A stretch of DNA of 28,343 bases. Source: an uncultured Erysipelotrichaceae bacterium (GTDB lineage: Bacteria > Bacillota_I > Bacilli_A > RF39 > UBA660). The position numbers and the translations under genes were made by a program. The DNA lies in the NCBI GenBank assembly GCA_902803685.1, contig CADCQR010000039.1:1-28343 (forward strand), read 5' to 3'. Of the stretch, positions 1,394-28,343 are shown in pieces. The notes below the pieces were generated by a model. The model did no database searches. It worked only from the letters and a program-made list of their open reading frames with translations, and was not told the DNA's origin. Numbering within the stretch: position 1 is the first letter of the stretch; every line of letters begins with the position of its first letter.

Positions 1394-1577
1394 AACTTCT
1401 TGGGAAAGAGTATGCTTTTAAATTATTCAGAGAGAGTATGGTTGGTGAAAATACTTTAAGATAAAAGTTGAAGACATCCTAGTGAAAAGAAGCGTGTTAC
1501 TACGTTAAAGGTTATAATGAGTTAAAAGAAGGTGGCACCGCGGGATATTCCTGCCCTTTATGTGTACCATCTTTTTA
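1394..1577 (+). promoter_or_regulatory. T-box riboswitch controlling hisS-aspS, probably sensing tRNA-Asp
   Basis: The T-box core AGGTGGCACCGCGG is at 1530-1543. Stem I is closed by CTTCTT (1396-1401) with AAGAAG (1487-1492), and continues as GGGA (1402-1405) with TCCT (1477-1480). An AGTA/GAA loop-E-like pair (1409-1412 and 1470-1472) marks the specifier loop. The distal loop carries the typical CAGAGAG and GGTTGGTG elements (about 1429-1446). GAA is followed by GAC (Asp, 1473-1475) and then A1476 before the helix resumes. A His codon CAT overlaps it at 1475-1477. The antiterminator bulge TGGC would pair with an acceptor end GCCA. That fits tRNA-Asp (discriminator G) and not bacterial tRNA-His (discriminator C). 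The alternative terminator pairs GGTGGCAC (1531-1538) with GTGTACCATC (1562-1571, two-base bulge) ahead of TTTTT. Leader length is about 180 nt. Confidence 0.93.
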
Positions 1578-1592
1578 TTTTGGGAGGTAAAA

Positions 1593-2645
1593 ATGATACA
1601 GAAACAGAAAGGTTGTAATGACATATACGGTAGAGAAGCTAAAGTATGGAAATATGTAGAGAGTGTAATAGATGCTACAATGGAAAAATATAATTACAAT
1701 TATATTAGAACTCCTTTATTTGAAGCAAGCGAGTTATTTCACCGAGGAATAGGAGAATCTACAGATATCGTAACCAAGGAAACTTATGACTTCGTTGATA
1801 GAGGTGGAAGAAATATTACACTTAGACCAGAAGGAACAGCCGGAGTAGTAAGAAGTTACATAGAAAATAAGATGTATGGAGATCCATGCCAGCCAGTAAA
1901 AGTATATTATAATGGCACTATGTATAGGTATGAGCGCCCTCAATCTGGAAGAGATAGGGAACTTACACAGTTTGGTATGGAAGTTTTAGGCAGTGATGAT
2001 CCACTTAGCGATGCAGAGGTAATATCTTTGGCTGTTAATATATATAAAATGCTTGGCTTAAAGGAAATTAAAGTTAATATTAATTCCTTAGGGGATAAAG
2101 AAAGTAGAGATAATTACAGAAAAGTTTTAATTGATTATTTTAAGCCCCATATTAAGGAGCTATGTGAGGATTGCAACTCGAGAATAGATAAAAATCCTTT
2201 GAGAATATTGGATTGTAAAGTTGATGCTGATAGTGAGTTGTTAAAGAATGCACCTAAGACTATAGATTATTTGAATGAGGCTTCAAGAGAAAGATTTGAA
2301 AAAGTTAAAGACTATTTGGATATTTTTGAAGTTAAATATGAAGTTAATCCTAACATTGTAAGAGGACTTGATTATTATAATCATACTGTATTTGAAATAG
2401 AAGCAAAGATAGAAGGATTTGGTTCTAATAATGTTTTAGGTGGTGGCGGTCGTTATAATGGGCTTGTTAATCAGTTAGAAGGCCCAGAAACACCTTGTAT
2501 TGGTTTTGCTTGTGGTATTGGTAGACTAGTTAAGGCTCTTGAACTTGAAAAGGTTAAGATGCCATTGGTAGATAGTGTTGATATTTTCTTGATGTATGTA
2601 AATGAAGAAGAAAAAAATATGCTGCATATTTGTCACAGCAATTAA
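1593..2645 (+). CDS. hisS: histidyl-tRNA synthetase, catalytic part (reading frame broken near 2617)
   Basis: Class II aminoacyl-tRNA synthetase that charges tRNA-His. Visible motifs are LRPEGTAG (about 77-84), the motif 2 region YYNGTMYRYERP (105-116), the HisRS-specific RGLDYYNHT (about 257-265) and the glycine-rich motif 3 region LGGGGRYNG (about 282-290) with GFACGIGRL after it. ATG 1593 is chosen because GGGAGG (1582-1587) precedes it by five bases; the longer in-frame extension would start inside the T-box terminator. The frame stays normal to about residue 342, then reads eight foreign codons and stops at 2645. The missing anticodon-binding domain continues in the -1 frame from 2618. 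The break lies in a run of seven A (2611-2617); one more A would restore a gene of about 476 residues. A sequencing or assembly error, a true mutation and recoding are all possible. First gene of the T-box operon with aspS. Confidence 0.93.
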   Translation: MIQKQKGCNDIYGREAKVWKYVESVIDATMEKYNYNYIRTPLFEASELFHRGIGESTDIVTKETYDFVDRGGRNITLRPEGTAGVVRSYIENKMYGDPCQPVKVYYNGTMYRYERPQSGRDRELTQFGMEVLGSDDPLSDAEVISLAVNIYKMLGLKEIKVNINSLGDKESRDNYRKVLIDYFKPHIKELCEDCNSRIDKNPLRILDCKVDADSELLKNAPKTIDYLNEASRERFEKVKDYLDIFEVKYEVNPNIVRGLDYYNHTVFEIEAKIEGFGSNNVLGGGGRYNGLVNQLEGPETPCIGFACGIGRLVKALELEKVKMPLVDSVDIFLMYVNEEEKNMLHICHSN

Positions 2646-3019
2646 GATTAGCAGGATTTATTGTTGAGACTGAGTATACTGGGCGTGGATTAAAGGGACA
2701 ATTTAAGCAGGCTGATAGATTAAATGCAAAATTTACAGCTGTACTAAATAGTGAAAGTTTAGATAATAATGAGGTAAAAATCAAAAATAATAAAACTAAG
2801 AATGAGGATATTATTAGCTTAGATGTATTACTTTACTATTTAGATGAACAATTAGCTGAAATGGAAGCTGATGATGAGTGTGGTTGTGCCTGCCAAGACG
2901 ACGTAGAGTGCCATTGCCATGATGAGGAATGCGGATGCAGTCACGAAGAAGAACAAGAATGTTGTGGAAAACATCATGAAGCTACTCACAAATGTGAATG
3001 TCATCACAAGGAGGATTAA
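2618..3019 (+). CDS. hisS: histidyl-tRNA synthetase, anticodon-binding part plus Cys/His-rich tail
   Basis: Continuation of hisS in the -1 frame, about 133 residues to TAA 3017-3019. It starts YAAYLSQQLRLAGF and includes the GRGLKGQFKQADR segment typical of the HisRS C-terminal anticodon-binding domain, ending near YYLDEQLAEME. There is no convincing separate start: the only early candidate is a TTG at 2630 with no Shine-Dalgarno site. The two parts together give about 425 residues of ordinary HisRS, then an extra tail of about 50 residues with 11 cysteines, 8 histidines and many Asp/Glu (for example ECHCHDEECGCSH). This composition suggests metal binding, which is inference. The tail is in frame with conserved HisRS sequence and ends only two bases before the aspS start, so it is part of the gene. 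The aspS Shine-Dalgarno site AAGGAGG lies inside its last codons. Confidence 0.88.
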   Translation, partial: YAAYLSQQLRLAGFIVETEYTGRGLKGQFKQADRLNAKFTAVLNSESLDNNEVKIKNNKTKNEDIISLDVLLYYLDEQLAEMEADDECGCACQDDVECHCHDEECGCSHEEEQECCGKHHEATHKCECHHKED

Positions 3020-9629: not shown

Positions 9630-12248
9630 ATGAAAAAGATTATTTTAGTTGATGGAAATAATTTGTTATTTAGAAGCTTTTATGCTACAGCTTATACTGG
9701 AAATGTTATGAGAAATTCTAAAGGGTTTCCTACAAATGCTTTATTTGGTTTTATAAATATGATGAATAAGATAATTAGGGAAGAGAATCCCAATTATATT
9801 TTAGTAGCATTTGATAAAGGAAAGACTTTTAGACATGATAAATATGAAGTATATAAAGCAGGTAGGGCTGCTATGCCTGACGATTTGAGAGTACAGTTTC
9901 CTATGGCAAAAAAAATACTTGGTGCGATGGGAATTAAGTACTTTGAGATAGATAATTATGAAGCCGATGATATTATTGGAACTATGGCGAAAGTAGTTGA
10001 TGAAGAAGATGAATTCATCGCCACTATTGTCTCAAGTGATAAAGACTTATTGCAGTTAATTAGTGATGAAGTTACGGTTAAATTACTTAAAAGCAATGAC
10101 TATATTTTGATGACTCCAGAAGTATTCAGAGAAACATATAAGTGTGATCCAATTAAAATGATTGATTTAAAAGCACTTATGGGAGATTCGTCAGATAACA
10201 TCCCAGGTGTCAAAGGAATTGGAGAGAAAACAGCAATTAGTTTAATAGAAAAGTTTGGGTCTTTACAGAATCTATACGATAATTTGGATAAAGTAACTGG
10301 TAAGACCAAAGAAAAATTGGCCTCAGACAGAGAAAACGCTTTTATGTCGTATGATATTGCTACTATATATAGAGAAGTTCCAATACCCTTTCAGTTAGCC
10401 GAGTGTAAATATGAAGGAATTAATAAGAAAGAATTATTAACTTATTTACAAGAACTAGAAATGCCTTCATTAATTAGAAAATATGATTTGTATGAAGAAA
10501 GCTTAGAGTTAAAAAAATCTGAATCTCTCGAAAATGTTCCTTTAGTGATAAAAGATATTTCAGATTTTGATTCTAATGTTGATTATGCAATCTATGTAGA
10601 GACAAGAGGCTCTATATACTCTAAGAGTGAATTATTAGGTATTGGTTTATATGATGGTAAAAATGGTTATTTTTTAACGCCTGATTTAATTGAGGCTAAT
10701 AAAAATATATTTGCAAGTAATAGTAGTAAAAGCATCTATGATTTTAAGAAAGGATTAGTAGTATTAAATTCTTATAACATCAATTTTGAAAACGTAAATT
10801 TTGATAGTGAAATCGCTTTATATTTACTAGATTATGTTGTTAAAGATGATATAAGTTTTGTAGCTAAAAATTTTGGTTATGATATTGAACTCTATGAAGA
10901 TTCCTATGGTACTGACAAGAGACCTAAGGAAATTAGTTTAACAGATATTAGTAACTTAGCTGTTTCTAAAGCCAAGTTTATATACGAGACAAGAGCTTTA
11001 ATCGAAGAAAAAATAAAGGATGAACAATTAGAGTATTTGTTTAGAGAAATTGAAATGCCATTGAGTATTGTTCTAGCCGATATGGAACTTACTGGTATAA
11101 AAGTTAATGTTGATTATTTGACAGAAGTTCAAGAAGAGTTAAAGAATAAGATGAATTTAGTTGAACAAGATATTTATGGTATGGCTGGAATGGAATTTAA
11201 TATAATGTCTCCTATACAACTTGGTGGGGTATTATTTAAAACCTTGGGAATACCTTATCCTAAGAAAATCAAGGATGAAAAGTATTCTACCAGTAAAGAC
11301 ATTTTAGATAAATTAGTTGATGATTATCCGATTGTTAGTAAGGTATTAGAATATAGAACGTTATCTAAGCTTTATACTAATTATGCTGTAGGATTAATTT
11401 CCGAAGTAAGAGATGATGGTAGAATACATACCATATATACACAAGCTTTAACAAGGACTGGTAGGTTGTCTAGTATAGAACCTAATCTTCAAAACATACC
11501 AGCTAGAGGTGATTATTCTAAGATAATTAGAAAGGCATTTATACCAGATGAAAATTCCATTTTATTAGGTAGTGATTATTCACAAGTAGAATTAAGAGTC
11601 TTTGCTTCTTTATCTAATACTGAGAATTTAATAAATGCCTTTATTCAAGATGAAGATATTCATACTAAAACAGCTTCGGATATATTTCATGTTCCCATTG
11701 AGACTGTCACAAAAGACATGCGAAGAACTGCAAAAGCAGTAAACTTTGGTATTGTATACGGGATTAGTTCTTTTGGGCTTGCTGATGATTTGGGAATAGA
11801 CTTTAAAGAAGCAAAGAATTTTATAGATAATTATTTAAAGACTTATCCAGGTATTGTTGATTTTATGGAAAAGCTAAAAAATGATGCTTATCAGAACGGA
11901 TATGTTAAAACATTGATGGGAAGAAAAAGAGTAATCGAAGAACTAAAGAGTAAAAATTATATGATAAGGCAGGGTGGAGAGAGAATGGCTCTTAACACGC
12001 CTATACAAGGAACTGCTGCAGATATTCTAAAAAAAGCAATGGTAGAAATATATGCTGAATTTAAAAAGCGTGACTTAAAAAGTAAAATGTTACTTCAGGT
12101 CCACGATGAATTGGTATTTAATGTCATAAAAAGTGAGTTAGACGAAGTGATGGTAATTGTAAAAGATATTATGGAAAATACATATAAATTAAAAGTACCA
12201 TTGAAAGTTGATATGGAATATGGAAATGATTGGTCTGAAACCAAGTAG
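9630..12248 (+). CDS. polA: DNA polymerase I
   Basis: An 872-residue family A polymerase for Okazaki-fragment processing and repair. The N-terminal 5'-nuclease domain (about 1-290) shows VDGNNLLFR, YEADDIIG, SSDKDLLQL and GDSSDNIPGVKGIGEKTA. The middle domain keeps the fold but has lost proofreading residues: the expected D-x-E is YVE in IYVETRG, and the later Asp positions are not seen. The polymerase domain is intact, with motif A SDYSQVELR (catalytic Asp649), motif B RRTAKAVNFGIVYG and motif C VHDE (Asp826). Loss of 3'-5' exonuclease is also known in Bacillus Pol I. ATG 9630 is preferred over an in-frame ATG at 9618 because GGTGA (9620-9624) lies five bases before it. Forms an operon with mutM, and the mutM ribosome site overlaps the stop codon. 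Confidence 0.97.
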   Translation: MKKIILVDGNNLLFRSFYATAYTGNVMRNSKGFPTNALFGFINMMNKIIREENPNYILVAFDKGKTFRHDKYEVYKAGRAAMPDDLRVQFPMAKKILGAMGIKYFEIDNYEADDIIGTMAKVVDEEDEFIATIVSSDKDLLQLISDEVTVKLLKSNDYILMTPEVFRETYKCDPIKMIDLKALMGDSSDNIPGVKGIGEKTAISLIEKFGSLQNLYDNLDKVTGKTKEKLASDRENAFMSYDIATIYREVPIPFQLAECKYEGINKKELLTYLQELEMPSLIRKYDLYEESLELKKSESLENVPLVIKDISDFDSNVDYAIYVETRGSIYSKSELLGIGLYDGKNGYFLTPDLIEANKNIFASNSSKSIYDFKKGLVVLNSYNINFENVNFDSEIALYLLDYVVKDDISFVAKNFGYDIELYEDSYGTDKRPKEISLTDISNLAVSKAKFIYETRALIEEKIKDEQLEYLFREIEMPLSIVLADMELTGIKVNVDYLTEVQEELKNKMNLVEQDIYGMAGMEFNIMSPIQLGGVLFKTLGIPYPKKIKDEKYSTSKDILDKLVDDYPIVSKVLEYRTLSKLYTNYAVGLISEVRDDGRIHTIYTQALTRTGRLSSIEPNLQNIPARGDYSKIIRKAFIPDENSILLGSDYSQVELRVFASLSNTENLINAFIQDEDIHTKTASDIFHVPIETVTKDMRRTAKAVNFGIVYGISSFGLADDLGIDFKEAKNFIDNYLKTYPGIVDFMEKLKNDAYQNGYVKTLMGRKRVIEELKSKNYMIRQGGERMALNTPIQGTAADILKKAMVEIYAEFKKRDLKSKMLLQVHDELVFNVIKSELDEVMVIVKDIMENTYKLKVPLKVDMEYGNDWSETK

Positions 12249-21814: not shown

Positions 21815-22276
21815 ATGAAGAACAAAGGGATATTAATTTTTATAGTTGTAGTAGTGATATTAATAATTGCTGGAATATTAATATCAGTATTACCAAAAAA
21901 GGACAATGATAAATCCGTAAAAGATAAGGCATATGGGAATGAGACAGATCTTTCTACTAAGCAATGTTTAGATAATGGCTTTTGTGTAGGCAACTTTAAA
22001 ATTAGCAAAAATTCCGATTATTATTTTGTATTTATAGAAGCTAAAAATGAAGGCAAAGAAACTTTGACAAGACCATTTGTAAAAATTGTGTTTAAAGTTG
22101 GTAATAAAGAGATATCATCATTATTTACAGTGTCCGAAATAAATGTTGCTGAAATAGTACAAGTTGATTTTCCGTTTACTGATGATGCTGATATTCTTAA
22201 AGCAAAAAAGTATGAATTAAGGAAACCAACAGACGAAGAAATAAAAGAATATAAAGAACAGATGGGGATAGAATAA
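21815..22276 (+). CDS. small membrane-anchored protein with C-x5-C motif, paralogue of the 25443 gene
   Basis: A 153-residue protein with one N-terminal membrane helix (about 5-26) and an extracytoplasmic domain. The motif KQCLDNGFCVGN places Cys51 and Cys57 near the start of that domain. A beta-rich core follows, then a C-terminal segment ILKAKKYELRKPTDEEIKEY. The protein at 25443 has the same order: KHCTDDGLCIEN, a beta core and ILKILDYKIRKATEEDI. The two are therefore paralogues. I know of no named family. AAGGAG (21803-21808) lies six bases before ATG. It lies just upstream of a giant pilin-like gene, as its paralogue does, which suggests a shared role at the cell surface. Confidence 0.8.
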   Translation: MKNKGILIFIVVVVILIIAGILISVLPKKDNDKSVKDKAYGNETDLSTKQCLDNGFCVGNFKISKNSDYYFVFIEAKNEGKETLTRPFVKIVFKVGNKEISSLFTVSEINVAEIVQVDFPFTDDADILKAKKYELRKPTDEEIKEYKEQMGIE

Positions 22277-22284
22277 ATATATTG

Positions 22285-22306
22285 AGCGATGAAATTCGCT
22301 TTTTTT
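22285..22306 (+). terminator. terminator after the 21815 gene
   Basis: AGCGA (22285-22289) pairs with TCGCT (22296-22300), followed by six more T. Confidence 0.75.
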
Positions 22307-22326: not shown

Positions 22327-22368
22327 TATTAGAACTAAAATTCTTATTTAATAAATAAAATTCTAATA
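22327..22368. repeat. 8-bp inverted repeat upstream of a pilin-like gene promoter
   Basis: TATTAGAA (22327-22334) and TTCTAATA (22361-22368) are perfect inverted arms 26 bases apart, ending right before the -35. It may be an operator or chance in AT-rich DNA. Confidence 0.35.
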
Positions 22369-22397
22369 TTGCGTAAATTAATGTAAAATATTATAAT
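22369..22397 (+). promoter_or_regulatory. promoter of the first giant pilin-like gene
   Basis: TTGCGT (22369-22374) and perfect TATAAT (22392-22397) are 17 bases apart. The paralogue at 26322 has the same arrangement with TTGCAT, and both leaders contain TAGAGGATAGTGATT. Confidence 0.6.
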
Positions 22398-22427
22398 TGT
22401 TAATATAATAGAGGATAGTGATTGGGT

Positions 22428-25400
22428 ATGGTTAGCTTGTCAGGTAAAAGAAATAAAAAAGGATTTACAATGCTTGAACTATTGGCTGTAATAGTAATAT
22501 TAGGGATAGTAGCAACAATCTCCATTGTTTCGGTTCAACGCTTATTGGTAAAAGCCAAGGCACAATATTACAAATCACAAGAGGAAAGTATGGTTATGGC
22601 TGGGCAAAATTATCTCGAAGCTAATAAGACCGCTCAACCAAAAATTAGTGGACAGCTGATTAAATTAGAACTAAAATCATTAAGAAATTCAAAATATATA
22701 GAAAATGTGGTTGATTATAGTAAGAAAGAATGTAACATTGATAATTCTTATGTTCAAGTATTTAAATATAAGGATGAATTACGTTATATGCCATATTTAG
22801 ATTGTTTACCTGATTATAAAACAGATTTAAATGCAGATGATAAAAAACCAAATATAGTAATCAGTTATCTAGAGGCTTTTACATCAAAACCCAAGGTTGA
22901 GATTAAATTAAAAGATGAACATAATGGATTATTTACATATTATTATAAAATTTATAAAGATGATAAACTTGTATATTCTAGTGATAATATAGATGGAAAG
23001 GGAACAACTGAAGAAATAAAAAAAATGTATAAGCTAAATGATTATGTTCCAGGAAAAATTAAAGTTGTAGTTACGGCTATAAATACTTATGGTAATTCTA
23101 TTACAAAGTCTGCTACACAGGATTTTGCGGACAAGACACCGCCCATATGTAAGAATATAATTGGCGACTCTACTACTTGGACAACCGGTTCAAGGGAAAT
23201 ATCAGTGGAGTGTGATGATGGTAATGGAATTGGATGTAAAAAACAGATTTATACTAAAAAGTTTAGTAGTGATACTAGAGTAGGTATAATAACAATAGAA
23301 GATAAGGCTGGTAATAAAACAGATTGTAATGTCAACGTTTATATTGATAAGGCACCTCCTAGTGTAACTGTAAAAATATATAAAAGAGAATCTAATGGTG
23401 AAAAAATAGGTTCACCTATACAAACAAAGCAAACTAAAGGATCAGAACCACTTGATATTGAAGTAATAGAAGATAACGTCGGAGGTTGGCTTAATAAAGA
23501 AAATTATCCATCCGGCGTCATCATAGAAGCAAATTATGAAGATAGTGTAAACGTTAGCAAGATAGAATGGCGCTGGAATGCTAGTGGACTTAAAAAGACT
23601 GATAGTAATGTAAATACTTATCCAGAAGGCAAATTGGAAATTACAGAACCAAATAAGCAAAAAGGAAAATATTTGCCTAGCCTCATTGCCGAAGGATATA
23701 GAAAAGCTCAAATGATAATATCAGATGAAGCTGGTAATAAAGCGACAATCAATTTAACTGTGCCGATGGATAGGACTGCACCTACTAAACCAGTTTTACA
23801 AAATTCACATGATAATAAATGGGTAAATTTTGATTATTCAATTTCAGGAACTACAACAGAAGCTTTGTCGGGCATTAGAGATTGGGCATATAGCTGGTCA
23901 AGTCAGGGTAAATATGAGACTTACGCAAACTCAAATAAGACTTCGTACACTACAACCAATTTTTCCTCTGATATAAATCAAGATGTTTATATTAGAGCTT
24001 GTGATGTTGCTGGCAATTGCTCAGAACCTGCCGTTAGTAAAATCAAAATTGATAAACAAAAACCAACTTGCACTAAAAGTGGAGAAGGTTCACCAGCTGA
24101 TTGGGCAAGCTCTAGAACGATAAAAATAGCCTGTAAGGATCAAGCAGCAAAAGTAAATAGTGGATGTACAATGGATAGCTCAACAGAAGAAGAAATAACT
24201 ACTTATACAGAAACAAAAGATTATATTTTAAAAGATAACGCTGGAAATATTTCTACATGTACAGCAGATATTTATGTTAATCCAAAAGATTCAATTGTTG
24301 TAAAAATTTATAAGTTAGATAATAAGGGGAATGCCACTGGTAATCCAGTAAAAACAGCTGTCATTGATGATACAGATATACATGAAATTCAAATTGATAA
24401 GGATACTGTAGGAAATGATAAGTGGTTAAATGCAACTAACTATCCTTATGGTATATACATTGAGTATACTTATAGCGGTACCAAGCTGGATACATTTACA
24501 TGGAAATATAATGACGCAAATATTGCTAAAAATAGCTCGGATGTAAACAATTTATCTAATAGTAATTCAGTAACCGTTAATGAAACAAGCTGGTCAGGTG
24601 GCAAAAAAATAGGAGTAGATGGGTATCGAAAGGCTCAGATGATATTTAAAACTGTAACTGGAAAAGTATATAAGACTAATTATACTGTACCTCTTGATAA
24701 AACTGCACCAAAGCTTTCAACAAAAAATCTTGGAAGCGTTTCTAATACAGTGGCTACTCAAAAGGTTTCTGCAACTTTTAATGATTTATCTGGAGTAGCA
24801 ACTGCATCTTATTGTATTAAATACAATGATTCTGCTAATCCAACAACTGATGATGATAAATGCTTTAAATTAAATGATACTGCATCTAACTCTTCTACAG
24901 GAAAATATACTAGAAATTGTAATCAAGAAAATTATTTTTGGGTTGTAGCAACAGATAAAGCTGGAAATAAAACGGAAATAATAAATTTGGGTAATAACGA
25001 GGATGGTGAAAATAAGTATGGAGCTTGGCCAGAATGTACGAAATACTGTGGAAAAAATGCATATGTGACAAGAACCAATTCATGTGCCCTAGTGACCTCA
25101 GACAGGAAAAAGTCTTGTCAGATAATTACAAATTGCCCTAAATCACTGAATTGTAAATATTATGGAAAACTTATAACAAATGAGCCCATCATAGGTCACT
25201 GGGATAACTGCACTGGAAAGCATGCACATGATAATTCTGCGCGTATTCACTATTGCCTCGGAGCTGATGGTACTGTATATGTTAAGAGCGGCGGTAATGA
25301 TTTTGACCGAAATAAAAAACTGGCAAAAAAATATGATGGTATAAATGCAACAGTTTCTACTACAATGGACGCATCTTACGCTTGCCCCAATAAGCCATAT

Positions 25401-25430
25401 GCTGATTGGACACTAATAACAATGAAATAA
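22428..25430 (+). CDS. giant pilin-like surface protein with repeated four-cysteine Ig-like modules
   Basis: A 1000-residue protein. The N-terminus has a type IV prepilin signature: KKG|FTMLELLAVIV, cleavage after Gly12, Glu at +5, and a long hydrophobic helix to about 37. A pilin-like head extends to about 235. Then comes a composite module seen twice. Part A has four cysteines (Cys241, 262, 270, 300; second copy 548, 569, 580, 611) and ends in EDKAGNKT- or KDNAGN-type sequence. Part B runs from VKIYKR or VKIYKL to GYRKAQMI and TVPMDRTAP or TVPLDKTAP (about 315-452 and 624-760). Between the copies lies another Ig-like unit (454-542) with CDVAGNCSEP. A cysteine-rich C-terminal domain of about 130 residues begins near 868. 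ATG 22428 is preferred over TTG 22422; AGTGAT five bases upstream is the likely ribosome site. Substrate and binding partner are unknown. An adhesin or pilus-like role is inference. Confidence 0.85.
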   Translation: MVSLSGKRNKKGFTMLELLAVIVILGIVATISIVSVQRLLVKAKAQYYKSQEESMVMAGQNYLEANKTAQPKISGQLIKLELKSLRNSKYIENVVDYSKKECNIDNSYVQVFKYKDELRYMPYLDCLPDYKTDLNADDKKPNIVISYLEAFTSKPKVEIKLKDEHNGLFTYYYKIYKDDKLVYSSDNIDGKGTTEEIKKMYKLNDYVPGKIKVVVTAINTYGNSITKSATQDFADKTPPICKNIIGDSTTWTTGSREISVECDDGNGIGCKKQIYTKKFSSDTRVGIITIEDKAGNKTDCNVNVYIDKAPPSVTVKIYKRESNGEKIGSPIQTKQTKGSEPLDIEVIEDNVGGWLNKENYPSGVIIEANYEDSVNVSKIEWRWNASGLKKTDSNVNTYPEGKLEITEPNKQKGKYLPSLIAEGYRKAQMIISDEAGNKATINLTVPMDRTAPTKPVLQNSHDNKWVNFDYSISGTTTEALSGIRDWAYSWSSQGKYETYANSNKTSYTTTNFSSDINQDVYIRACDVAGNCSEPAVSKIKIDKQKPTCTKSGEGSPADWASSRTIKIACKDQAAKVNSGCTMDSSTEEEITTYTETKDYILKDNAGNISTCTADIYVNPKDSIVVKIYKLDNKGNATGNPVKTAVIDDTDIHEIQIDKDTVGNDKWLNATNYPYGIYIEYTYSGTKLDTFTWKYNDANIAKNSSDVNNLSNSNSVTVNETSWSGGKKIGVDGYRKAQMIFKTVTGKVYKTNYTVPLDKTAPKLSTKNLGSVSNTVATQKVSATFNDLSGVATASYCIKYNDSANPTTDDDKCFKLNDTASNSSTGKYTRNCNQENYFWVVATDKAGNKTEIINLGNNEDGENKYGAWPECTKYCGKNAYVTRTNSCALVTSDRKKSCQIITNCPKSLNCKYYGKLITNEPIIGHWDNCTGKHAHDNSARIHYCLGADGTVYVKSGGNDFDRNKKLAKKYDGINATVSTTMDASYACPNKPYADWTLITMK

Positions 25431-25442
25431 TAGGAATAAAGT

Positions 25443-25922
25443 ATGATAAAGAAAATAAAAAAAAATTATATAATTATTACTTGTTTAATTATTTTTGGAG
25501 GAATTCTAATTTTGGGTGGAGTTACAATAAAGAACTATATAGTAAAGAATAAACTTTTATCTGATTCTAAAAATGTTTCTGTAGATACTAGAATCGCTAG
25601 CAAGCATTGTACAGACGACGGTTTGTGCATAGAAAACCTTTTCGTGGCTGAAAGCAATGGAGAATATATGATTACTGGTGAGATTACTAATATTAACGAA
25701 CACTCTCTAAGTGATTTATCTATATCAATTGATTTTATTACAGAAAAAAAGACACTTACTTTTACTTTTCCAAATATTTATCTTAATGCAAAGGAAAGTA
25801 GTGTAATTAATATATCAGATATTGATGATGTAGAGATATTAAAAATACTTGATTATAAAATCAGAAAAGCAACCGAAGAAGATATTATTGAGTACGAGAA
25901 AACACATAACCCTAATAATTAA
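25443..25922 (+). CDS. small membrane-anchored protein with C-x5-C motif, paralogue of the 21815 gene
   Basis: A 159-residue protein with an N-terminal membrane helix (about 9-31) and an extracytoplasmic domain. KHCTDDGLCIEN gives Cys56 and Cys62, spaced as in the 21815 protein, and the C-terminal ILKILDYKIRKATEEDIIEY also matches it. It starts only 12 bases after the giant pilin-like gene, with AGGAA as ribosome site, so the two are probably cotranscribed. Possible roles are a helper in display or folding of the large protein, or a minor surface component. Both are guesses from position. Confidence 0.8.
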   Translation: MIKKIKKNYIIITCLIIFGGILILGGVTIKNYIVKNKLLSDSKNVSVDTRIASKHCTDDGLCIENLFVAESNGEYMITGEITNINEHSLSDLSISIDFITEKKTLTFTFPNIYLNAKESSVINISDIDDVEILKILDYKIRKATEEDIIEYEKTHNPNN

Positions 25923-25941
25923 CAGATTTGTATTTTATAGT

Positions 25942-25963
25942 CTTTTTGAACCAATTCAAAAAG
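25942..25963. repeat. perfect 9-bp inverted repeat after the 25443 gene
   Basis: CTTTTTGAA (25942-25950) and TTCAAAAAG (25955-25963) with a four-base loop. No T-run follows on the plus strand, so it is not a standard terminator. It could protect the mRNA end or bind a regulator. Confidence 0.45.
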
Positions 25964-26045
25964 GTATGTTGTACATTGAAATAATATTCTAAAAATAAAA
26001 AAGTATGAAGAATTATCAACATACAGGAACAAAACGTTAAACTAT

Positions 26046-26083
26046 AAAAACAGTCAATGTATTAAAACTTTGGCTGTTTTTTA
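26046..26083 (+). terminator. terminator of the 22428-25922 unit
   Basis: AAAAACAGTCAA (26046-26057) pairs with TTGGCTGTTTTT (26070-26081) with one G-T wobble. It is followed by a few more T. It lies about 120 bases after the last stop codon. Confidence 0.8.
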
Positions 26084-26263
26084 TATTGAATCACGATGCT
26101 ATTTTTACAAAATTGTATGTAAATTTTCTTATTAATTTTTTCATTATTAGTTATTTAATTAAATATGTAAAATTTCAATACGATAAAGCTTAATTTCAAA
26201 TCTATAAAAAGTATTGAATCTAATATATAATTTTAGAAAATTATACAAACTAAACTTAAAATA
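26084..26263. other. AT-rich spacer with one inverted repeat, no gene seen
   Basis: This part of the 399-base gap between 25922 and 26322 holds no supported reading frame. TTCAATAC (26174-26181) and GTATTGAA (26211-26218) are perfect inverted arms 29 bases apart. A similar repeat lies upstream of the other giant pilin-like gene. Confidence 0.4.
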
Positions 26264-26292
26264 TTGCATAAGACCATTAAAAACATTATAAT
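26264..26292 (+). promoter_or_regulatory. promoter of the second giant pilin-like gene
   Basis: TTGCAT (26264-26269) and perfect TATAAT (26287-26292) are 17 bases apart, the same design as at 22369-22397. Confidence 0.6.
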
Positions 26293-26321
26293 TTATATTA
26301 TAGTAGAGGATAGTGATTTTT

Positions 26322-28343
26322 ATGGCACAGTATAGTAAAAAAGTTAGAAAAAAGAACGGCTTTACAATGGTAGAATTGCTTGCAGTAATAGTAATCTTAG
26401 GAATATTAGCAACAATTTCAATTGTTTCGGTACAGAGACTATTAGCAAAGGCAAAGATTGAATATTATAAATCTCAAGAAAATAGTCTTGTGATGGCTGG
26501 ACAGAACTATCTCGAGGCAAATAAAAAATATCAACCAAAAGTAAGTGGTCAAGTATATAGAATAAAATTGAGTAAATTGACGGAATCCAAATATATAGAA
26601 AATGTAGTTGATTATAGTAAAAATGCGTGTGACTTAGATAATTCATATGTGCAAGTATTTAAATACAAGGATGAGTTTCGATATACGCCATATTTAAAAT
26701 GTCCAAATTATGAAACTAGCTCAACTACAGGAAGTGAAAAGCTAGATATAAGCATAGCTTACAATGATACTGTATCTAATGCCAACGTAAAAATTACACT
26801 TAGCGATGAAGAAAATGGATTGTTCACCTATTATTACAAGATATATACTGTAGAATCTGGGGTAAGTAAACTTATATATTCAAGTGATGTTATTGATGCT
26901 AAAGGTGCAAAGAAAGTAGAAAAGACATATAAATTAAATGCATATATACCTGGAACAGTTAAAGTAACAGCTACTGCTATTAATACCTATGGTAATTCTA
27001 GGACTGAAACATCAATCAAGACTTTCGAAGATAATATAGCACCGCTTTGTGATACGGTAGAGGGAGCATCGAAGGAATGGACAACATCTTATAGAACTAT
27101 AAAAGTAAAATGTAATGATGGAAATGGTGTTGGTTGCAAAAAAGAATGGTATATAAAGAAATTTACTACTGATACTAGAGTTGGTAAAATAACAATAGAA
27201 GATAAAAATGGAAATAAAACAAACTGTGATGTAGATGTGTATATTAGTAAGAGCGCTCCTACGGTAACTATAAATATATATAAAAGAGCATCAGATGGAA
27301 GCAAAGCAGATTCGAACGCAGTCCAAACTGCCAAAACAGATGGTTTAGAACCTCTTGATGTACAAATCACAAAAAATGTAGTAAATAAATGGCTTAATAA
27401 TGAGAACTATCCTTATGGGGTAATAATAGAAGCAAAATATAAGGATAGTATAATGGTTAGTAAGATAGAATGGAAATGGAATAATAAGGAACTTAAAGAA
27501 ACAGATACAAATGCCAGTAACTTAAATAATACAAGCATAGAGACTCCAAATCAATCAACTGGAACATTTGCTCAAGGAATTAGTGCGGAGGGGTATAGAA
27601 AAGCCCAGATGATAGTATCTAATGAGGCTGGGAATAGTACAATAATTAATTTCACAGTTCCAATGGATAGGACAGCACCAGGAGCACCAACTACAAGTAC
27701 AGTAAAATGGAAAGATAACAGTGGGTCAACGCCGACTAGCCCAGACGGTTTGGATAAATATGACAGCGGATGGGTAAATAAATACATATATGGTTATCCG
27801 TCTAACGCAACAGACACATTATCTGGTATGGACTCAAGTAAATACGAATATCAAATGACCAGCGGAGAAACTGTTACAAAAAAAGTGGCACCTAATTTTG
27901 TCGTAAAAAGTAACGGTAAAACAACAGTAAAATACAAGGGTTGTGATAAAGCTGGCAACTGTTCTGGTTATGGAGCCGCTAAGGAGATACAAATTGATAC
28001 TATTCCACCAGGATGTGAAATAGGTGGAGGAAGCGATAATTGGGTAAATGCATCGGCAACTAACAAATATCGAACAATAACTGCAAAATGCTCATACGAT
28101 GGATTAAGTGGGTGCTCATCAGGTACAACATCATATAAATATGATTCGAATATAAACACTACAACAGCTGGTGCGGGCGGAAACAATGTTGGTGGAACAG
28201 TCTACGATAATGCTGGAAATAAGACAACCTGTTCAGCTAACCAGGTTGTAAAAATAGATTTGACACCACCAACCGCAATTGTAAAAATATACAAAAGAGG
28301 TGCGGATAATAACAAGGCCGATCAAACAATCCGTCAACAATCA
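26322..28343 (+). CDS. second giant pilin-like surface protein, 3' end beyond the window
   Basis: The frame is open for 674 codons from ATG 26322 to the last base, with no stop, so the gene is partial only because the window ends. The N-terminus has the prepilin signature KNG|FTMVELLAVIV (cleavage after Gly13, Glu at +5). The helix and the head, with GQNYLEANK and YIENVVDYSK, closely match the protein at 22428. The same composite module follows. Part A has Cys243, 264, 272 and 302. Part B starts at INIYKR and ends with GYRKAQMI and TVPMDRTAP (about 317-452). An intervening unit contains CDKAGNCSG. A second part A has Cys565, 590, 598 and 637, and a second part B begins VKIYKRGAD. The likely ribosome site is AGTGAT five bases upstream, as in its paralogue. 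Confidence 0.87.
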   Translation, partial: MAQYSKKVRKKNGFTMVELLAVIVILGILATISIVSVQRLLAKAKIEYYKSQENSLVMAGQNYLEANKKYQPKVSGQVYRIKLSKLTESKYIENVVDYSKNACDLDNSYVQVFKYKDEFRYTPYLKCPNYETSSTTGSEKLDISIAYNDTVSNANVKITLSDEENGLFTYYYKIYTVESGVSKLIYSSDVIDAKGAKKVEKTYKLNAYIPGTVKVTATAINTYGNSRTETSIKTFEDNIAPLCDTVEGASKEWTTSYRTIKVKCNDGNGVGCKKEWYIKKFTTDTRVGKITIEDKNGNKTNCDVDVYISKSAPTVTINIYKRASDGSKADSNAVQTAKTDGLEPLDVQITKNVVNKWLNNENYPYGVIIEAKYKDSIMVSKIEWKWNNKELKETDTNASNLNNTSIETPNQSTGTFAQGISAEGYRKAQMIVSNEAGNSTIINFTVPMDRTAPGAPTTSTVKWKDNSGSTPTSPDGLDKYDSGWVNKYIYGYPSNATDTLSGMDSSKYEYQMTSGETVTKKVAPNFVVKSNGKTTVKYKGCDKAGNCSGYGAAKEIQIDTIPPGCEIGGGSDNWVNASATNKYRTITAKCSYDGLSGCSSGTTSYKYDSNINTTTAGAGGNNVGGTVYDNAGNKTTCSANQVVKIDLTPPTAIVKIYKRGADNNKADQTIRQQS

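Follow-up and report, generated by a model that had tools for sequence, protein, structure and literature searches.

We present a computational analysis of two neighbouring genes for giant prepilin-like proteins, GP1 and GP2, at the end of a 28,343-nucleotide stretch of DNA (contig CADCQR010000039.1; hereafter the window, meaning the whole stretch). GP1 (22428..25430, plus strand) runs for 1000 residues from an ATG, and GP2 (26322..28343, plus strand), likewise with an ATG start, for at least 674 residues, its frame being open at the window end; both sizes agree with those given in an earlier interpretation made from the letters alone (the sequence-only reading). The giants are real and probably fit, for the most part, a known kind of adhesive pilus subunit: GP1 and GP2 are likely to be modular minor pilins of a type IV filament that are exported through a minimal pilus machine and display immunoglobulin (Ig)-like stalks, which would act as adhesins. 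They are read in this way because modular pilins, in which a functional module is grafted onto a pilin module, have been published (more than 1,200 proteins in 264 architectures, in the available part of PMC8179133) and because the four core proteins that likely suffice for a filament, namely pilins, peptidase, extension ATPase and platform protein (PMC10191384, also available in part), are present in 15 of 20 related genomes. The evidence computed here is the export signal, a predicted pilin fold, a predicted Ig-like string, the machinery in relatives, the expansion of the giants and a companion gene.

Both giants carry the prepilin-type N-terminus that had been ascribed to them, each scoring above the curated thresholds of Pfam N_methyl (30.7 bits for GP1 and 28.6 bits for GP2; cut-off 21.2) and of NCBIfam TIGR02532 (28.1 and 28.6 bits; cut-off 16.3). 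The class III signal comprises in both proteins a glycine at -1, a hydrophobic stretch and a glutamate at +5, and cleavage of GP1 is predicted after G12 in the sequence KKG/FTMLE, giving a leader peptide of residues 1-12 (22428..22463, plus strand). The two proteins are 51-52% identical overall; identity declines from 79% over the N-terminal 70 residues to 33% over residues 561-630. Among 37 aligned N-termini G12, F13 and E17 are invariant, in a set selected by a pattern that demanded F13 and nearly demanded G12 and E17. Under a search rule without the Glu requirement, position +5 is Glu in 83 of 85 class III-like open reading frames (ORFs) of at least 500 residues and position -1 is Gly in all 85, though the rule allowed Ala and Ser, many of these loci having been fetched by a pattern containing Gly and Glu.

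The first ~130 residues of GP1 are modelled as a helix of ~51 residues followed by a small head (model mf7117b70600e; mean predicted local distance difference test score, pLDDT, 91.9), the helix extending to residue 65 and the head to ~126 (22464..22805, plus strand). A long helix 1 of about 50 residues with a globular head is what characterizes type IV pilins; of the 20 PDB sequences that a profile of the region matches, 19 carry the name of a pilin or pseudopilin, and the segment is predicted to form a whole pilin module. Beyond it, residues ~139 to ~640 (22842..24347, plus strand) are modelled as a string of Ig-like strands and domains (model m6b74bd60d7a2), with structure matches that include SiiE and GhpA of Aureispira, and this structure prediction upholds the modular extracellular repeats proposed from the letters alone. 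With its Ig-like string the GP1 model joins to a pilin module a domain not specific to pili, the combination that defines a modular pilin.

Toward the C-terminus of GP1, residues 862-898 (25011..25121, plus strand) form a thrombospondin-type-1 (TSP1)-like stretch; neither this stretch nor the gene between the giants figured in the sequence-only reading. It aligns with the TSP1 region of a relative, P0028, at 49% identity over 47 residues (E 7e-12), the aligned part including the preceding linker, and scores 12.6 bits against a local profile from five relatives (an E value of 0.031 for the whole sequence in a set of 64 proteins), for which a control with 20 shuffles per protein gave 0 matches at E<=1. 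In the Pfam scan of GP1, TSP1 stayed below the curated cut-off, and the stretch is termed TSP1-like only, because it has no Pfam TSP1 call and its likeness to P0028 is pairwise. The cut-off was passed by four of eight relatives scanned, of which P0028, P0031 and P0034 combine TSP1 with an N_methyl prepilin signal and P0044 is without a prepilin start. A literature search for TSP1 together with a prepilin found nothing, most subscription journals lying outside its reach.

Sixty further proteins of 563-1622 residues match GP1 at E<=0.001, their similar size being partly by construction because the search was restricted to 0.55-1.75 times the query length, among the best 7995 candidates by common words; searching the contigs of related genomes with GP1 as single query gave nothing useful. 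Twenty related genomes were chosen from among the 80 best loci, out of 267 relatives, in a scan with an alignment (A1), and 18 of them (G012 and G015 left out) hold 165 N_methyl matches at E<=0.01, a few under the cut-off, where length is counted from stop to stop and some frames run off their contigs. At least 500 residues are reached by 61 matches, spread over 17 of the 18 genomes (G020 has none), and only 14 of the 165 fall between 250 and 600 residues. Most related genomes hold several giant prepilins, and half of the giants (30 of 61) stand within 7 kb of another. A profile of head plus Ig (A5) matches 59 of 288 genomes at E<=1e-10 in the order of G007 (Bacilli bacterium isolate S32M_St_metabat_15, L007), which is among the nearest genomes found (hisS 92%, FtsZ 85% and FtsA 62% identical); these counts are lower bounds, at most 9 candidates having been scored per genome, and some matches comprise one Ig repeat or the head only or lie in frames under 300 residues. 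At G006:C1:18305-18796 a stretch resembling GP1 is interrupted by two in-frame stops and is apparently a decayed copy.

The window holds no pilus-assembly gene, as had been noted before, with none among the 24 of its 31 ORFs (80 residues or more) that were scanned; this absence says little because only 6.7 kb of the window lie beyond ftsZ. The sequence-only reading had held that a lineage without prepilin peptidase and assembly genes would favour plain membrane anchoring. The related genomes mostly show the opposite: prepilin peptidase was found in 18 of the 20, PilC in 19 (G019 with ComG-like matches only), a T2SSE ATPase in 19 and, at more than 380 bits, a strong PilB-type match in 17; in 15 genomes a strong PilB is accompanied by both PilC and peptidase. 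G001 has no T2SSE match, the sole one in G002 and in G007 is a CpaF-like match of ~100 bits, and a few genomes carry weaker ComG-type PilB/PilC matches beside the main ones. One genome of the wider order with an A5 match, G251, shows no strong PilB, no PilC and no peptidase. Of the 288 genomes, 271 carry PilC, both surveys being assumed to cover the same set, and the co-occurrence of PilC with A5 matches is uninformative because PilC is nearly universal.

The pilC and prepilin peptidase genes adjoin in G004 (L116), and pilC lies ~15 kb (G007) and ~19 kb (G004) downstream of ftsZ; the linkage is not general, pilC standing on the other side of ftsZ in G014 and 260 kb off in G005. A search with PF11104 (PilM) gave 16 matches in 12 of the 20 genomes, over cut-off in 7, of which 7 lie on located FtsA, 1 continues FtsA, 5 are in unchecked frames of 414-427 residues and 3 are short pieces; a separate PilM gene is not shown by this search, which covered PilM only. 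A second ATPase match of ~90-102 bits occurs in 18 of the 20 genomes. T2SSE matches of this strength were rejected as extension ATPase, since the two read (L133, G007:C16; L134, G004:C9) look CpaF/Tad-like with a SAF-type neighbour, hinting at a Tad-like system. Small prepilin-like genes beside pilB look like core minor pilins (L135, L136, L140, L142). Ordinary prepilin pairs of 186-222 residues, likely major pilins, adjoin a gene that we take to be endonuclease IV-like (L137, L138, L143, L145, L147).

A small gene directly downstream accompanies many giants. For GP1 it is orf159 (25443..25922, plus strand), encoding a small single-pass membrane protein of 159 residues that begins 12 bases 3' of GP1. 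A companion was defined as an ORF on the same strand within 150 bases 3', of 80-320 residues, that has a single hydrophobic segment near its N-terminus and lacks a prepilin motif, and the first set comprised giants with a readable downstream neighbour, prepilins of 261-499 residues and giants cut by contig ends being excluded. In that set 20 of 46 giants (GP1 included) have a companion; among other ORFs 70 of 984 have one (Fisher 8e-11), and among small prepilins 1 of 53. The counts become 20 of 41, 70 of 719 and 1 of 46, respectively, when only genes with a close same-strand neighbour are considered. The same rule gave 11 of 21 giants against 5 of 88 others in 25 further regions from A5 matches (p 2e-6; three giants cut) and 2 of 8 against 2 of 35 in a third small set (p 0.15; two giants cut), these p-values and the first overstating certainty, as related genomes are not independent and the other ORFs include non-genes. 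In the first two sets 19 of 31 giant-companion gaps measure 8-16 bases.

The companions make up several sequence groups, with only some companions clustering by sequence, and are not one family; a Pfam scan of ten companions found no family over cut-off, and orf153 likewise has none. This last gene (21815..22276, plus strand), upstream of GP1, encodes a small single-pass membrane protein of 153 residues and is a paralogue of orf159 (phmmer 3e-15 with the first 40 residues removed). A protein search with orf159 found one copy, 99% identical, on a public contig of 2834 bases (P0065), and the organism has therefore been seen elsewhere. At L048 (9992-14373 and just downstream) giants of 628 and 629 residues each have, at a distance of 20 bases downstream, a lipoprotein-like ORF of 137 residues in place of a single-pass membrane protein; the two ORFs are similar to each other and possibly a variant of the companion. 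A companion gene as type IV pilus accessory was not found described in the literature search, which most subscription journals lay beyond.

The mechanism that we infer from these data runs as follows. The class III signal would insert GP1 and GP2 in the membrane, prepilin peptidase (PilD) would cleave them behind the glycine, and the giants would be drawn by their pilin module into the type IV filament, at or near its tip, through a minimal machine of PilB and PilC. The Ig-like chain could then project as a stalk, with the variable cysteine-containing end and its TSP1-like stretch as the adhesive end, and with several giants per genome different adhesive ends could be presented on one machine. 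As for the companion, this small protein probably helps, within the membrane, the particular giant pilin whose gene it directly follows. More tentatively, and with somewhat less than even confidence, we suggest that in a lineage of gut Bacilli the type IV pilus has been turned into a display platform with exchangeable heads, in which a repeated two-gene cassette, a giant Ig-stalk pilin with its own small membrane partner for loading or holding it, would have expanded so that each genome has several alternative adhesins, some of them ending in TSP1 domains of the kind found in animal matrix proteins and for that reason possibly made for engaging host surfaces.

Among the options named in the sequence-only reading, an oversized minor pilin or a filament-tip adhesin is favoured by the pilin module and the machinery in relatives, and the helix as a mere anchor is less favoured; that interpretation is only partly supported, because the machinery was sought in related genomes, one of them with a giant frame, G251, shows none of PilC, peptidase and strong PilB, and cleavage and filament entry are predictions. 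Were the giants membrane-anchored stalks, the prepilin helix, cleaved or not, would serve as anchor only and the Ig string would cross the cell wall with no filament, which we regard as unlikely. Several observations nevertheless lean toward it and tell against modular minor pilins. The giants equal or outnumber the smaller prepilins among the matches of several genomes (6 of 10 in G001, 6 of 7 in G007, 6 of 11 in G005), their genes are scattered with no pilus operon, and no LPXTG-type sortase motif was found in GP1, the C-terminus of GP2 lying beyond the window. Four of the 59 A5-positive genomes (G063, G248, G251, G296, with frames of 355, 260, 876 and 613 residues, respectively) are without PilC, and the same four without prepilin peptidase; G251, with its 876-residue frame and only a CpaF-like ATPase match, is the strongest case. 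Against anchoring stand the module, predicted as a pilin with a head and no bare helix, the Glu kept at +5 (under the sampling caveat given above), the near universality of PilC in the order, and the strong PilB kept by three of the four genomes. Because pilC and the peptidase gene are neighbours in the type IV pilus locus, their joint absence may reflect one missing assembly segment, and a missing segment and a true loss are indistinguishable in these genomes because their completeness is not told.

The giants might instead be core tip pilins, taking over from the usual core minor pilins as subunits without which no filament begins, and not optional adhesins, as the partly modular PilABC of Streptococcus sanguinis (PilB and PilC being modular) replace PilHIJK in the available text of PMC10191384. 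This is improbable, given the candidate core minor pilins beside pilB, the one genome in 18 (G020) without a prepilin frame of at least 500 residues, and the Glu5 that nearly all giants keep, where the capping subunit has none according to the same source. That the genes are decaying or chimeric, their giant ORFs being relics or artefacts of assembly, can be set aside almost entirely, for although the in-frame stops in G006, a short prepilin ORF after ftsZ in G018 and the division of the window's own hisS between frames add to the points against modular pilins, 60 other proteins match GP1, frames of at least 500 residues occur in 17 of 18 genomes, GP1 and GP2 have a leader in common, and the companion gene recurs.

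The window is low in GC and reads hisS, Asp/Asn-tRNA synthetase, polA, fpg, pyruvate kinase, murG, murB, ftsQ, ftsA, ftsZ and the giant genes, and its relatives place the host among Bacilli. The sequence-only reading had the giant genes adjacent; they are near neighbours, with orf159 and about 400 non-coding bases between orf159 and GP2 intervening. The GP1 leader (22364..22427, plus strand) resembles that of GP2 (26259..26321, plus strand) in pairwise DNA alignment (TATTGC...ATTATAATT...TAGAGGATAGTGATT), and the TATAAT-like and ribosome-binding-like sequences that they have in common are probably promoter and ribosome-binding site. A terminator-like hairpin followed by a T run, a consensus match only, lies in the orf153/GP1 gap (22284..22301, plus strand), one of 4 such hairpins in the window against 1.5 expected in shuffles. 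A functional link of the giants to ftsZ was considered and rejected: giants stand 3' of ftsZ in the window and at 0 of 13 other ftsZ loci read. In G018:C1 (L119, ~11100-11454) the short ORF that directly follows ftsZ, in the position that the giants occupy in the window, has a good match to the prepilin motif and may be a relic. The window's hisS (1560-3019) lies in two frames, one of 361 residues and then the C-terminal end in 2630-3019, and its first part is 92% identical to the single 455-residue ORF of G007, so that a frameshift or a sequence error is suggested. The related genomes presumably belong to RF39, to go by the name Onthousia (L018); the taxonomy result reads Bacilli incertae sedis. 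RF39 is named as a reduced order of Bacilli, and type IV pilus genes are reported for another reduced-genome gut lineage, in the portion of PMC12306168 available.

Modular pilins have been published, and few have been studied. If the reading of GP1 and GP2 as modular minor pilins is true, this lineage takes the strategy further, with several subunits in each genome, several-fold larger than usual, on a minimal machine; it would make testable how heavily a pilin can be loaded and yet be polymerised, offer a lead on the attachment of uncultured gut Bacilli, and render the companion gene a candidate accessory of type IV pili.

Overall, the giants can be set beside several known systems. SiiE and GhpA of Aureispira, giant Ig-stalk adhesins, have Ig-like chains as in GP1, a likeness of fold only; their export and anchoring differ from those of giant prepilins. 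PilY1/PilC tip adhesins, like the proposed giants, are large adhesive tip proteins on a type IV pilus. However, PilY1 does not belong to the pilins and ends in a beta-propeller (PMC8179133, in part), whereas the Pfam scan of GP1 gave no match to that family, GP2 being incomplete. The competence (Com) pilus of monoderms forms a filament from core proteins only (PMC10191384, in part), comparable with the minimal machine proposed here; a few of the related genomes also carry the weaker ComG-type matches. Closest in plan are PilB and PilC of Streptococcus sanguinis, which likewise come from a monoderm and have a domain foreign to pili grafted onto a small pilin module at the N-terminus, adhesion having been shown for PilB; the most extreme modular pilin with multiple added domains in the same survey, as far as its available part goes, has 860 residues and 12 repeat copies (PMC8179133). 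In comparison, the proteins described here reach 1000 residues in GP1 and up to 1622 in relatives, carry Ig-like strings, occur several per genome and have a companion membrane gene, and it is in size, expansion, companion gene and TSP1 modules that they are unusual among modular pilins.

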